Assembly: GCF_006540005.1 (NCBI RefSeq) | Contig: NZ_BJOC01000003.1 | Location: forward strand, 1 to 64,000 | Length of the DNA stretch: 64,000 nt | From: Halomonas halmophila | GTDB taxonomy: Bacteria > Pseudomonadota > Gammaproteobacteria > Pseudomonadales > Halomonadaceae | Reading direction: 5' to 3' | In this document: positions 1-37,143 of the stretch, piece by piece | Numbering within the stretch: the first letter of the stretch is position 1 | Layout: every line of letters begins with the position of its first letter | Notes under the pieces: model-generated | Told to the model about the DNA's origin: nothing | Database searches by the model: none | The model's input: only the letters and a program-made list of their open reading frames with translations | Made by a program: the position numbers and the translations under genes

Positions 1-10
1 GCTAGCCTGC

Positions 11-91
11 TCTTCCCTCTTCCCTCTTCCCTCTTCCCTCTTCCCTCTTCCCTCTTCCCTCTTCCCTCTTCCCTCTTCCCTCTTCCCTCTT
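11..91 (-). repeat. Tandem heptanucleotide array after tatC
   Basis: Eleven perfect consecutive copies of TCTTCCC on the plus strand (GGGAAGA on the minus strand, sense to tatC) fill 11-87, followed by a partial copy that runs into the tatC stop codon at 92-94. The tatC transcript would therefore carry a pure polypurine 3' tail. The same heptad recurs after hslU, priA and gltD. The window starts too close to say what lies beyond. No gene is visible in 1-91. Confidence 0.95.
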
Positions 92-832
92 TTACTCCCC
101 ATCTTCCCGCTTCCGCTTGACGAGTCGGCCGAGCAGCAGGCCGACTTCGTAGAGCAGGTACATGGGCACGGCGAGCAGGCTCTGCGAGACGACGTCGGGC
201 GGAGTCAGCAGCATGCCGATGATGAAACAGCCGAGGATGATGTAGGGCCGCTTGCTGGCCAGGCTCTGGACCGTGGTGGCGCCGGAGAGAATCAGCAGGA
301 AGGTGGCGACGGGAATCTCGAAGGCGATCCCGAAAGCGAAGAACAGCTTGAGCACGAAGTTCAGGTACTGCTGGATGTCGGTCATCACCGCCACCTGGGC
401 CGGTCCGGTCTGGGTGAAGAACTGGAACAGCAGCGGAAAGACCACATAGTAGGCAAAGGCGATGCCGGTGTAGAACAGCAAGATGCTGGAGGCCAGCAGG
501 GGCAGTGCCAGATGTTTCTCGTTGGCGTAGAGCCCCGGGGCGATAAAGGCCCAGGCCTGATGCAACACGAAGGGCACCGCGATCAGGAAGGCCACCATCA
601 GGGTCAGCTTGAAGGGAGCGAGAAAGGGCGACGCCACCTCGGTGGCGATCATCTGCGAGCCTTCCGGCAGCAGGGCCATCAGCGGGTCGGCGACGAAGGT
701 GTAGATATCGTTGGCAAAGGCATAGAGCCCGAGGAAGATGACCAGGATGAGCACCACGGCCCGCATCAGCCGCGAGCGCAGCTCGACCAGGTGCTCGATC
801 AGCGGGGCGTGCTTGTGCTCCTGTTGACTCAT
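92..832 (-). CDS. tatC: Sec-independent protein translocase subunit TatC
   Basis: TatC is the multi-spanning inner-membrane receptor of the twin-arginine pathway; with TatB it binds the twin-arginine signal of folded substrates and then recruits TatA. The 246-residue protein has the normal family length. It opens with the typical [14 protein letters not shown] segment and has six hydrophobic stretches, including the conserved region [21 protein letters not shown]. It is the last gene of tatA-tatB-tatC on the minus strand; its start overlaps the tatB stop by 4 nt, suggesting translational coupling. A run of GGGAAGA heptads begins right after its stop codon. Confidence 0.97.
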
Positions 833-29362: not shown

Positions 29363-29481
29363 GCGACGAGCTACGAGCGACGAGCGACGAGCGACGAGCT
29401 AAGAGCTGCGAGTGAAGAGCTGCGAGGGAAGAAGGAAGAAGGAAGAAGGAAGAAGGAAGAAGGAAGAAGGAAGAAGGAAGA
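29363..29481 (+). repeat. Seventeen-unit heptanucleotide array after gltD
   Basis: An unbroken 7-nt register starting 11 nt after the gltD stop codon: GCGACGA, GCTACGA, three GCGACGA, GCTAAGA, GCTGCGA, GTGAAGA, GCTGCGA, GGGAAGA, then seven AGGAAGA. Every unit ends in GA, and the type shifts gradually from GCGACGA to AGGAAGA. The last units are identical to heptads found after hslU and priA. The 401-nt gltD-pyrG gap holds no gene; it also has a structured element at 29549-29643. Confidence 0.95.
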
Positions 29482-29548: not shown

Positions 29549-33600
<4,052 letters not shown>

Positions 33601-33630
33601 GGCGGTTTCGCCGCCTTCCGCGCTTTGCCA

Positions 33631-33648
33631 TGTAAGAGATATCCTACG
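33631..33648 (+). promoter_or_regulatory. GacA-box-like site upstream of the RsmZ-like RNA
   Basis: TGTAAG-AGATAT-CCTACG compared with the GacA consensus TGTAAG-N6-CTTACA: the left half is perfect, the right half matches 4 of 6. Its centre is about 182 nt upstream of the predicted RNA start, with the eno terminator and an AT-rich stretch between. A distant GacA box with an AT-rich spacer is, as I recall, also the situation at Pseudomonas aeruginosa rsmZ. Confidence 0.5.
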
Positions 33649-33682
33649 CATGGCCGAAGAGATCTGATACAAAACTCCTCGG

Positions 33683-33713
33683 AAGACCGCTGCCTCGGGC
33701 AGTGGTCTTTTTT
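33683..33713 (+). terminator. Rho-independent terminator of eno
   Basis: A 12-bp stem AAGACCGCTGCC/GGCAGTGGTCTT (one G-T wobble) with a TCG loop, running straight into a T-run. It isolates pyrG-kdsA-eno from the small RNA gene downstream. Confidence 0.93.
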
Positions 33714-33787
33714 TATCCATTTGATTCTCGGGAATTTTTTCTGAGAGATCGAGCCTGATGGTATCCGTTTCCGGCCGAGCCGCCGGC

Positions 33788-33815
33788 TTGTTAAGCCATC
33801 CAGACATGCCACAAT
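33788..33815 (+). promoter_or_regulatory. Predicted promoter of the RsmZ-like RNA
   Basis: TTGTTA (33788-33793), 16 nt, CACAAT (33810-33815). This places the RNA start near 33822, just before the first GGA motif. Confidence 0.5.
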
Positions 33816-33821
33816 GTACTC

Positions 33822-33991
33822 GGGACAAGGGAGAGCGGAGCTCTTCCGGCAGGATGCTACGGGATGCATCTCGAGTGCGCACGGTGTGACAGGAGGTCGC
33901 CTCCGTGCAGGGACAGCACTCACAGGAAGTGGGCGAATGGATTCGCTCGAGGACTTTGCTAGGAGCGGGCGGCCTGCGGGCCGCCTTTTTT
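33822..33991 (+). ncRNA. rsmZ: RsmZ/CsrB-type regulatory small RNA (CsrA decoy)
   Basis: A roughly 170-nt RNA predicted from sequence. It holds 11 GGA motifs in 142 nt (33823 to 33964). Several sit in hairpin loops: GAGC-GGA-GCTC (33833-33843), GATGC-TACGGGAT-GCATC (33853-33870), a stem of two 5-bp blocks with an AGGAG loop (33880-33907), CAC-AGGAA-GTG (33921-33931) and GCGAA-TGGA-TTCGC (33933-33946). Others are in single-stranded linkers. It ends in a strong terminator. Such RNAs bind and titrate CsrA/RsmA. Its place next to fdxA-mutS-pncC-recA is that of rsmZ in Pseudomonas. csrA itself is at 43924. No reading frame of note lies here. Confidence 0.88.
33968..33991 (+). terminator. Terminator of the RsmZ-like RNA
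   Basis: A 7-bp GC stem GGCGGCC/GGCCGCC with a TGCG loop followed by six T residues. Confidence 0.93.
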
Positions 33992-34023
33992 ATGTCTGGC
34001 CACCGGGCATGCAGGGCCGGAAA

Positions 34024-34061
34024 CAGGAGCGCCGAATGTCGCGAGACATCCGGCGCTCCTG
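34024..34061 (-). terminator. Probable terminator of fdxA
   Basis: An 11-bp stem CAGGAGCGCCG/CGGCGCTCCTG continued, after one mismatch, by 5 bp and a tetraloop. On the minus strand TTT follows. It lies between the convergent fdxA and small RNA genes. Confidence 0.7.
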
Positions 34062-34089
34062 TGTATCGGGGCCCTGGTCGGCCAGGCGT

Positions 34090-34413
34090 TCAACGTTCCA
34101 GGTGTTCCAGCTTGCCGGGCTGACCGTCCCACTGTTCGGCGTCCTCCGGGGGATCCTGCTTCTCGGTGATGTTCGGCCAGGTCTCGGAGAGTTCGGCGTT
34201 GATCTCGATGAACTGCTCCTGACCCTCGGGCAGCTCGTCCTCCGAATAGATGGCCTCGGCGGGGCACTCCGGTTCGCACAGGGCGCAGTCGATGCACTCG
34301 TCGGGTTGGATCACCAGAAAGTTGGGTCCTTCGTAGAAGCAGTCCACCGGGCAGACCTCGACACAGTCGGTGTACTTGCACTTGATGCAGTTTTCGGTGA
34401 CGACGAATGTCAT
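34090..34413 (-). CDS. fdxA: 7Fe ferredoxin (3Fe-4S and 4Fe-4S)
   Basis: A small electron carrier of the Azotobacter/Pseudomonas seven-iron type. The 107-residue protein has Cys9, 12, 17, 21, 25 and Cys40, 43, 46, 50 in the exact family spacing ([20 protein letters not shown] and [17 protein letters not shown]), plus the long C-terminal extension ([31 protein letters not shown]) that marks FdxA. It lies beside mutS on the minus strand. The 144-nt gap upstream is AT-rich and probably holds its promoter. Its electron partner is unknown. Confidence 0.97.
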
Positions 34414-34557
34414 GTCTGTCTCCCTTCCTCGGGCCGAGGTATTGTCGCGGCCAGTCGGTCACTTGTGATGAAGTTTGGTTATAAAAAAGAGCGATTTTAT
34501 AATATGTTGGTGCTTTGGGCCCATTTTAGTCGCGGCGCGGCGCCGATCGCAAGACGA

Positions 34558-37143
34558 CTAGAGCCTTTCCTTCCAGTGATACAGCCACTCCAGCGCCTCG
34601 CGCGGTGTCATGTTGTCGATGCCCAGGTTGCTCAGGCTTTCGACCACCGGGTGGGGAGCGCTGGCGAAGAGGTCGGCCTGCTGAGGCGCCTGGCGCGTCG
34701 CGCTGCCTTCCGGCAGTGACGGACCGCGCTGTCCCTGGTCGATCTCCTGCTGCTCGAGCAGCGCCAGCTTGTCGCGCGCGCGGGCGATGACGTCCTGGGG
34801 CACGCCCGCCAGCTGGGCGACCTGCAGGCCATAACTCTGACTGGCCGGCCCGTCTTCCACGCGATGCATGAAGACGATGCCGTCCTGGTGCTCGGTGGCG
34901 GTCAGGTGAACGTTGGCCACGCCCTCGACCTGTTCGGCCAGTGCCGTCATCTCGAAGTAGTGGGTGGCAAAGAGCGTGAAGGCCCGGCTGCGGGTCAGCT
35001 GTTCGGCACTGGCCCAGGCCAGCGACAGGCCGTCGAAGGTGCTGGTGCCACGCCCAATCTCGTCCATCAGCACCAGGCTGTGGTCGGTGGCATTGTGCAG
35101 GATGTTGGCGGTCTCGGTCATCTCGACCATGAAGGTCGAGCGCCCTCCGGCCAGGTCATCCGAGGAGCCGATGCGAGTGAAGATGCGGTCCACCGGCCCG
35201 ACCGAGGCGGCATCGGCGGGCACGAAGCTGCCGGTATGCGCGAGCAGGGTGATCAGCGCCGCCTGACGCATGTAGGTGGACTTGCCGCCCATGTTGGGGC
35301 CGGTGATCACCAGCATGCGCCGCTCGTCGTCCATGCGCAGGTCGTTGGGCACGAAGGGCGCGTCGCTGACCTGTTCGACCACCGGATGCCGGCCGCCCCG
35401 GATGTCCAGCCCGGGGGCTTCGGCCAGCTCGGGCTGCACGAAGTCGAGGGCTCGGGCGCGCTCGGCCAGGGTGGCCAGCACGTCGAGGGCGGCGAGCGCC
35501 TGGCCGGTGGCCTGCAGTGTCGCCAGCTCGGCGTTGAGGTCGTCCAGCAGGCTGTCATACAGCAGCTTCTCGCGTGCCAGGGCGCGGGACTTGGCGGACA
35601 GGGCCTTGTCCTCGAACTCCTTGAGCTCGGGGATGATGAAGCGCTCGGCGTTCTTGAGTGTCTGGCGGCGGATGTAGTCCACCGGCGCGTCCTGGGCCTG
35701 GGCGCGGGGGATCTCGATGAAGTAGCCGTGCACCCGGTTGTAGCCGACCTTGAGGCCGGGCAGGCCGGTGCGCTCACGCTCGCGGGTTTCGAGCTCGACC
35801 AGGTAGTCGCCGGCATGTTCGGCCAGTCCACGATGCTCGTCGAGCTCGGCGTCGAAGCCTTCGGCGATGACGCCGCCGTCGCGGATGACCACCGGCGGGT
35901 TGTCGACCAGGGCGCGACTCAGGGTATCGGCCAGCGTCGGGTAGGGGTGAATACGGTGCTTGAGGTCGTCGAGCGCGGTGCCCGCGTCGAAGCGCGCGAG
36001 CCCGGCCTCGAGCTCGGGCAGGGCGTTCAGGGCATCGCGCAGCCGGGCCAGGTCGCGTGGGCGCGCACTGTAGAGGGCCACCCGGGCCAGGATGCGCTCC
36101 ACGTCGCCGATGGCCTTGAGGGCGGCACGCGGGGCCTCATGGGCATCGCCATCCAGCAGTGCGGCAACGGCCGCCTGGCGCCCGGCGACCTGGGCACGAT
36201 CGCGCAGCGGGCGGTTCAGCCACCGCTTGAGCAGGCGCGAGCCCATGGCGGTGGTGGTGGTATCGAGCACGCTGGCCAGGGTGTTGTCGTGGCCGCCGCC
36301 GAGATTGACGCCGATTTCCAGGTTGCGGCGACTGGCCGCGTCGATCACCACGGCGTCGTCGCGGTTCTCCACGCCGATGGCGGTGACGTGGGGCAATTGC
36401 GACCGCTGCGTATCGCGCGCATAGTCGACCAGCACGCCGGCGGCGGTGATGGCGGCTTCCAGGTGGGCGCAGCCGAAACCCTTGAGGTCCTGAACGGCAA
36501 ACTGGTCACAGAGGGTGCGGGTGGCGCTTTCCAGGTCGAACAGCCAGTCGTTCTCGCGGCGCAGGCCCTGATGGGTTTCCAGTTCCGGCGGCAGGGCCAG
36601 GCTCTCGGCGACCAGCAGCTCCGCCGGGTCGAGACGCGTGATCTCGGCCAGGGCCTCGCTCTCGCTGTCGACCTCGAGCACGCTGAAGCGGCCACTGGAG
36701 AGCTCCAGCCAGGCCAGCCCCCAGCGCTCTCCCGCGGCGTTCAGGGCGACCACCAGGTTGTCGCGACGGGCATCCAGCAGGGCCTCGTCATACAGGGTCC
36801 CCGGGGTGACGATGCGCACGACCTGGCGTTCCACCGGCCCCTTGGCGGTATTCGGGTCGCCCAGCTGCTCGCAGATGGCCACCGACTCGCCGGCGGCGAC
36901 CAGTCGAGCCAGGTAACCTTCGGCGCTGTGGTAGGGCACGCCCGCCATGGGAATCGGCTGTCCGGCGGACTGGCCACGCTGGGTCAGGGTGATGTCCAGC
37001 AGGGCGGCGGCACGCTTGGCATCGTCATAGAAGAGTTCGTAGAAATCGCCCATACGATAGAAGAGCAGCACGTTCGGGTGTTCGCGCTTGATCTTCAGAT
37101 ACTGGGTCATCATCGGGGTGTGAGAGGTGCTGGCCTTTGACAT
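34558..37143 (-). CDS. mutS: DNA mismatch repair protein MutS
   Basis: MutS recognises mismatches and, with MutL, starts repair. The 861-residue protein begins [46 protein letters not shown], including the Phe-x-Glu mismatch-reading motif (DFYELF). The ATPase domain has Walker [30 protein letters not shown], then [18 protein letters not shown], the Walker [24 protein letters not shown] and [13 protein letters not shown]-terminal tail ([19 protein letters not shown]) matches the tetramer and MutL contact region. Divergent from pncC. Confidence 0.98.

Follow-up and report, generated by a model that had tools for sequence, protein, structure and literature searches.

Arrangement of the eno-fdxA intergenic region

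In the window, i.e., the whole 64,000-nt stretch of Halomonas halmophila DNA analysed here, eno is followed at a distance of 221 bp by a segment that an earlier note on this DNA had read as a small RNA of the RsmZ/CsrB type, and the segment faces fdxA tail-to-tail. The features of the region are listed in Table 1. The hairpin behind eno was recognised by eye and is absent from the output of the terminator scan. Directly past fdxA lies a near-perfect long inverted repeat (34018-34067), which was matched on both strands in the permissive Rfam search described below and is perhaps part of the fdxA terminator.

Table 1. Features of the eno-fdxA region and the csrA gene (window positions)
Feature	Position	Strand	Basis
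eno, upstream neighbour	32296..33600	+	ORF; upstream, same direction, in 86/86 same-genus loci
GacA/UvrY-box-like palindrome TGTAAG-N6-CCTACG, presumed upstream activating sequence	33631..33648	+	relatives carry it at a similar distance
Terminator-like hairpin with T run, probably of eno	33683..33715	+	read by eye
Tentative IHF-like site between palindrome and promoter	33714..33726	+	score 8 of 9
-35-like hexamer TTGTTA	33788..33793	+	conserved TTG block in alignment; promoter scan without listing
-10-like hexamer CACAAT, TG one base before	33810..33815	+	conserved GCCACAAT/GCCAGAAT block; promoter scan without listing
Small RNA, RsmZ/CsrB type, 11 GGA motifs	33822..33991	+	inferred start from the promoter position; end set by the terminator
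Hairpin 1, loop GGA 33837	33829..33847	+	MFE; GGA column kept in only 17/85 sequences
Hairpin 2 region, GGA 33852 (paired in MFE) and loop GGA 33862	33848..33871	+	fold; GGA columns kept in 78/85 and 80/85
Hairpin 3, inner-loop GGA 33892 in ACAGGA-N-GU context, GGA 33911 unpaired	33873..33921	+	helices 1 and 2, both-side changes in 10/15 pairs; GGA columns 80/85 and 84/85
Hairpin 4, loop GGA 33939	33930..33949	+	helix 3, both-side changes in 3/6 pairs; GGA kept in 85/85
Intrinsic terminator	33967..33991	+	terminator scan (1 found; shuffles of region average 0.7); helix 4 of covariation analysis
fdxA, tail-to-tail neighbour	34090..34413	-	ORF; opposite strand in 80/86 same-genus loci
csrA, presumed ligand, only match in genome	43924..44121	+	Pfam PF02599, 90.4 bits, 1 match

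Eleven GGA trinucleotides occur from 33823 to 33964 (142 nt), exactly as the earlier note had counted them. Dinucleotide-preserving shuffles of the 170-nt stretch contain a mean of 6.2 (P = 0.004), and the stretch (33822-33991) folds better than its shuffles (z = -2.46; 1 of 200 shuffles as good). In the minimum free energy (MFE) structure, four GGAs (33837, 33862, 33892, and 33939) lie entirely inside hairpin loops and two others (33911 and 33951) in interior or multibranch loops; the earlier statement that at least five are in or next to hairpin loops is thus fair, although the MFE structure of the window sequence has 33830 and 33852 base-paired. The mean unpaired probability was 0.72 for GGA versus 0.36 for all trinucleotides. 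The terminator that had been proposed behind the RNA was also recovered by the scan. Simple repeats of the GGAAGAA- and GGGAAGA-type, at 29420-29480 (+ strand) upstream of pyrG and at 1-120 (- strand) at the start of the window, have a GGA density equal to or above that of the sRNA. Density, loop placement, and size had been taken as the defining properties; of these, the exposure of the GGAs stands, but density by itself is not unique in the window, and it is conservation that makes the case.

A promoter-like sequence had likewise been claimed in front of the RNA. The arrangement TTGTTA-N16-CACAAT (33788-33815) does agree with a block conserved in the relatives, but a consensus promoter scan of the region listed none. 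The promoter is probably weak, which would fit an activator-dependent promoter.

The best evidence, absent from the earlier note, is a GacA-box-like palindrome at the distance known from csrB. It differs from TGTAAG-N6-CTTACA at 2 of 12 positions, and no other site in the assembly matches TGTARG-N6-CYTACR exactly. Counted from 33822, a start that is itself inferred from the promoter, its centre falls at -183/-182, the same place as the centre of the UvrY palindrome in front of E. coli csrB (-183/-182; PMC4682653). The boxes of the relatives read TGTAGG or TGTAAG, N6, and CCTACA or CTTACA at about the same distance, with a score of at least 10 of 12 in 103 of 111 loci; the eight loci below 10 are seven GacA-less loci and L081 (score 9). 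Among the 43 loci from named genomes, 41 were scannable and 40 scored at least 10. Genome-wide, box-like sites with at most one mismatch were not commoner than in the reversed control (12 and 16 versus 24 and 18).

One further palindrome of this kind, TGTAGG-N6-ACTACA (L214, G000:C13:49481-49498), precedes an ORF that by eye resembles a GGDEF-type protein and is a possible candidate for a direct GacA target other than an sRNA.

The site between palindrome and promoter was scored against the IHF consensus. In the relatives, the best such site scores at least 8 in 40 of 86, versus about 13% of shuffles, and 28 of those 40 start at about -100 to -120. This is no more than suggestive of an IHF-like site.

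Conservation and covariation within the genus

By DNA search, 86 of the 90 same-genus genomes contain a relative of the region. Of the four genomes missed, G051 was positive by covariance model and the other three are 72-79% complete. Four of the six loci in which fdxA was not seen reach a contig end, and L079 and L080 lack it inside the 1.2 kb fetched. The five nearest relatives are 89-92% identical to the window at the locus.

Of the 11 GGA columns, eight are retained by 74 to 85 of the 85 sequences (L088 was left out of the GGA counts owing to masked bases), and those at 33830, 33837, and 33925 by only 37, 17, and 2. The GGA count per sequence is 10-13 in 76 of the 85. Covariation was assessed in 33 of 39 non-redundant sequences, the long or odd variants L067, L072, L074, L077, L079, and L089 having been excluded from the model alignment. 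Across the four main helices, 98.7% of the cells are paired and 15 of 29 pairs have changes on both sides. A total of 97 cells changed on both sides, versus 22 expected from shuffles (0 of 500 shuffles as high), and sliding the helix partner destroys the signal. These compensatory changes support the predicted stems. A lack of GGA-hairpin conservation in related Halomonas genomes, which the earlier note had named as a ground for rejecting its reading, is not what was observed, given the eight kept columns and the covarying stems.

The same data bear on what else the segment could be. A 301-aa ORF from 33814 spans the RNA, as if a small protein were encoded here; open frames of this kind are common in G+C-rich DNA, the lengths of the 85 sequences are even across the classes modulo 3 (31, 27, and 27), any one frame, set by the RNA start rather than by alignment column, stays open in at most 41 of the 85, and the changes follow base pairs. 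We regard a coding gene as extremely improbable. Very improbable, too, is the suggestion that there is no independent RNA and that the segment belongs to eno or fdxA as a conserved terminator or 3' untranslated element. Its placement directly between both genes, 221 bp after eno, would suit such an element, but conservation extends from the RNA to its own upstream palindrome, promoter-like block, and terminator, a separate terminator-like hairpin seen by eye stands behind eno, and a terminator alone needs no conserved GGA hairpins. A GacA-regulated sRNA that acts mainly by base pairing with mRNAs (e.g., with Hfq), its GGAs being incidental, has slightly more in its favour and is still improbable: the terminator and GacA box are compatible with either mode of action and CsrA binding is only predicted, but the GGA triplets in the loops are kept while the stems change by compensation, and the narrow range of the GGA count points the same way.

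Distribution, the GacA connection, and variants of the locus

A covariance model (R1) was built from 33 relatives. In its own genome, R1 scored 165.1 bits at the locus and 17.1 bits at the next match. In the family, 221 of 250 genomes and 19 of 24 genera had a match at E ≤ 0.01, and 16 of 24 genera had matches above 60 bits; family matches of 17-27 bits (g3, g4, g5, g18, g19, and g22) were at noise level and not counted. In a sample of 390 genomes of the order that also contained members of the family, strict filters gave nothing above 30 bits outside the family; matches of 20-29 bits, in scattered places and with rough E-values, were taken as noise. The strong R1 loci that were read in the wider family lie between eno and fdxA-mutS, except L237 (g17), which has eno only. 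An exact-pattern scan of named genomes returned 43 records assigned to Halomonas, Billgrantia, Litchfieldella, Modicisalibacter, Franzmannia, or Bisbaumannia, all of which we take to be Halomonadaceae; H. elongata and L. anticariensis are included.

No second Rsm RNA was found in the genome by a non-exhaustive search of R1 matches and box-like sites. Read by eye, the R1 matches that follow in score (17.1, 16.7, and 15.1 bits) are not GGA-rich RNAs. The 150 nt after the palindrome at 33631 contain 11 GGA, and at most 7 follow the other box-like sites for which the script gave rows; it gave none for 4 of 19 loci (L216, L218, L219, and L224), and the + strand of L214 was read by eye.

The presumed ligand is encoded in the window: the csrA product is nearly identical across its first 57 residues to solved CsrA/RsmA proteins (PDB, best E 4.2e-30). 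One GacA exceeds its cut-off in the genome (C14:36568-37194; 283.8 bits versus 280), and a GacS-like hybrid kinase at C25 scores 641.7 bits, short of the curated cut-off of 890. Many GGAs exposed in loops or single strands, a conserved secondary structure, a GacA/UvrY palindrome far upstream, and CsrA and GacA (plus GacS) encoded in the genome are the features by which CsrA-titrating sRNAs are recognised; each was found, with the kinase below its curated cut-off.

The relationship between the box and GacA was examined in the family. GacA was searched in 39 family genomes with NF007018 (E up to 1e-40) and GacS/BarA with NF008318 (E up to 1e-100, with no more than 16 candidates scored in each genome), and the eno-side locus was examined in 29 of the 39. 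The box was upstream in all 22 genomes with a GacA match (only partial, 193 bits, in G196), and an upstream box scoring 10 in none of the seven without a GacA or GacS match; the score limit of 10 of 12 was set after the scores were known, and the genomes share ancestry. The GacA-bearing loci L264 and L067 reach no more than 10 (shuffle P 0.12 and 0.14), and the GacA-less locus L246 has one box score of 10, downstream of its RNAs. G095 was considered as an exception and dismissed, as its box is present far upstream of a longer RNA. In a tree from the eno, FdxA, and MutS parts, the seven GacA-less genomes fall in two places, a clade of g8, g10, g16, and g17 (support 0.99) and G033 inside the genus, and therefore stand for two or more separate losses rather than seven. 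The other ten of the 39 genomes all lack a strong R1 match; GacA was found in six (G091, G092, G093, G110, G112, and G194) and in none of the remaining four. The Csr RNAs of those six, if any, would be elsewhere or diverged.

The size of the RNA varies at this locus, the variant lengths being predicted from where the box and the terminator lie. Seven Halomonas loci (L067, L072, L074, L077, L079, L080, and L088) have a longer RNA region, of about 290-330 nt where the ends are clear. Four of them (L067, L072, L074, and L088) have a second box or half-box 5 bp past the first, and E. coli csrB likewise has a second, partial site spaced 5 bp from the first (PMC4682653). In one genome of g7 (G095, L236), the eno-fdxA intergenic region holds a candidate RNA of about 708 nt with 34 GGA and a 12/12 box upstream; a promoter-like site is listed just before its predicted start (shuffles average 0.9 such sites), and the scan listed no terminator inside the predicted 708-nt RNA. 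In g8 (G119, L246; G133, L245), four successive R1 matches, some overlapping, lie between eno and fdxA as a block repeated four times, with 28-29 GGA in the intergenic region; GacA, GacS, and the upstream box were not found in either genome. The array may be one transcript, given that by eye only the last unit has a clear T run. The copy in G033 (L089) is degenerate, poor in GGA, and lacks a box; this 2.9-Mb genome gave no match to GacA or GacS.

Most loci read hold a single RNA of about 170 nt; from there the locus ranges to 290-330 nt in a few Halomonas, the 708-nt candidate in g7, and four tandem units in g8, and the g8/g10/g16/g17 clade retains a GGA-bearing RNA relative with no GacA, GacS, or box found. 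A tentative reading, to which we give slightly less than an even chance, is that the eno-fdxA locus serves as a dial for CsrA-sponge dosage across the family and that sponging in this clade has passed to another regulator.

Assignment and comparison with known Csr/Rsm RNAs

At gathering thresholds, a search of the whole window with 4227 Rfam families gave three tRNAs only. The earlier note had named the RsmZ and CsrB covariance models as a check, and on this point its reading was not borne out: a permissive search of 33000-35000 with the same 4227 families gave PrrB_RsmZ (RF00166) as the best match with 19.5 bits, below the gathering threshold of 44 (E 0.093), CsrB was not listed even at E up to 10, and none of the seven matches was to a further Csr-type family. 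The eno-fdxA place was also absent from the matches when RF00166 was run on the whole genome at E up to 10. Standard RNA annotation misses the Halomonas RNA. The weak RF00166 matches elsewhere in the genome (L001 and L002) resemble coding DNA by eye. Another genome of the genus has a weak RF00166 match at G065:C12 (L204).

Position gives a different result. The 13 loci above the RF00166 threshold all belong to one other family (f21), which we take to be Pseudomonadaceae. Nine of the 13 lie tail-to-tail with fdxA and beside mutS, the same position and orientation as in Halomonas, which bears out the earlier remark on the rsmZ position; the other four are without fdxA in the stretch examined. 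In all 13, a box lies between -169 and -181 relative to the start of the match. The below-threshold matches number 19, of which 17 were examined; nine of the 17, in six further families, are also beside fdxA, and six of the nine have an upstream box scoring at least 10. L203 and L207, with only 0 and 2 GGA, are doubtful. The placement by which RsmZ orthology is judged, beside fdxA-mutS and tail-to-tail with fdxA, is thus found here, and we read these loci as one ancestral Rsm-RNA locus beside fdxA, flanked on its far side by eno in Halomonas. Since the RNA is below the RF00166 threshold and R1 gave nothing above 30 bits outside the family, the argument for descent from RsmZ is one of position only.

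Collectively, the anatomy of the locus, its conservation and covariation, the co-occurrence of box and GacA, and synteny make it very probable that the Halomonas RNA is a GacA-activated CsrA-titrating small RNA and the positional orthologue of Pseudomonas RsmZ. The earlier RsmZ/CsrB reading is upheld by the conserved GGA columns, the covariation, the box at the csrB distance, the lack of a box where GacA has no match, the single csrA and single GacA, and the fdxA-mutS position. The assignment that is supported concerns functional class and position, the sequence falling outside Rfam RsmZ membership. Counted against it are the 19.5 of 44 RsmZ bits, the GacS-like kinase below cut-off, the negative promoter scan, the three of 11 GGAs not conserved as columns, and the six GacA genomes without a strong R1 match.

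We infer transcription, GacA binding, CsrA binding, and titration for the Halomonas RNA as follows. Phosphorylated GacA would bind the palindrome at 33631-33648 and activate the weak promoter, perhaps with a DNA bend, with a start near 33822. The resulting RNA of about 170 nt would end at the terminator, and its GGA-bearing hairpin loops and single-stranded GGAs would bind CsrA dimers, a capture that would free the mRNAs under CsrA control.

Halomonas species serve as industrial hosts. The predictions reported by Kulkarni and colleagues in 2006 could include a relative. For Halomonas anticariensis, a table in a 2020 review gives GacS-GacA, CsrA by genome inspection, and the sRNA as 'Unknown', and places quorum sensing, exopolysaccharide, and biofilm under GacS-GacA (PMC7366521). 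CsrA of H. hydrothermalis has been modelled in a 2026 preprint, which leaves sponge sRNAs to future models (PMC12889724). The RNA was not described in the titles, abstract starts, and open-licence literature searched for Csr-Gac small RNAs of Halomonas, H. elongata, Halomonadaceae, and Chromohalobacter, and the eno-fdxA RNA was not described in the available parts of PMC7366521, PMC12889724, PMC4187203, PMC13414033, PMC4597393, and PMC9049629. The RNA is a strong candidate for the missing Csr sRNA link in Halomonas, listed as 'Unknown' for H. anticariensis in the review table (PMC7366521). Its place is given here in H. elongata and Litchfieldella anticariensis, and a covariance model is supplied for a group missed by Rfam. 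The clade with an RNA relative but no GacS/GacA match makes the control of a CsrA sponge without its usual activator testable.

With RsmZ/PrrB (RF00166) of Pseudomonas, the Halomonas RNA shares GGA hairpins, a terminator, a GacA box about 170-183 bp upstream, and the tail-to-tail position with fdxA-mutS. It differs in sequence, which is below the Rfam threshold, and in size, at about 170 nt with 11 GGA versus 118-137 nt with 6-9 GGA for the 13 above-threshold RsmZ matches. E. coli CsrB and CsrC contain many GGA hairpins, and CsrB is longer than the Halomonas RNA and located elsewhere. The Halomonas RNA also shares with csrB the palindrome centre at -183/-182 (PMC4682653). According to a figure legend, the rsmZ region of P. 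fluorescens SS101 comprises fdxA, mutS, nlpD, and rpoS with the box TGTAAG-N6-CTTACT, so that the upstream neighbour is rpoS in that Pseudomonas legend and eno in Halomonas (PMC4353343). By their description, CsrB and CsrC of Marinomonas mediterranea share a GacA box, A(N)GGA motifs, and a terminator with the Halomonas RNA; they were predicted from these features, and RNA-seq then showed their dependence on the GacS/GacA homologues (PMC8523701).
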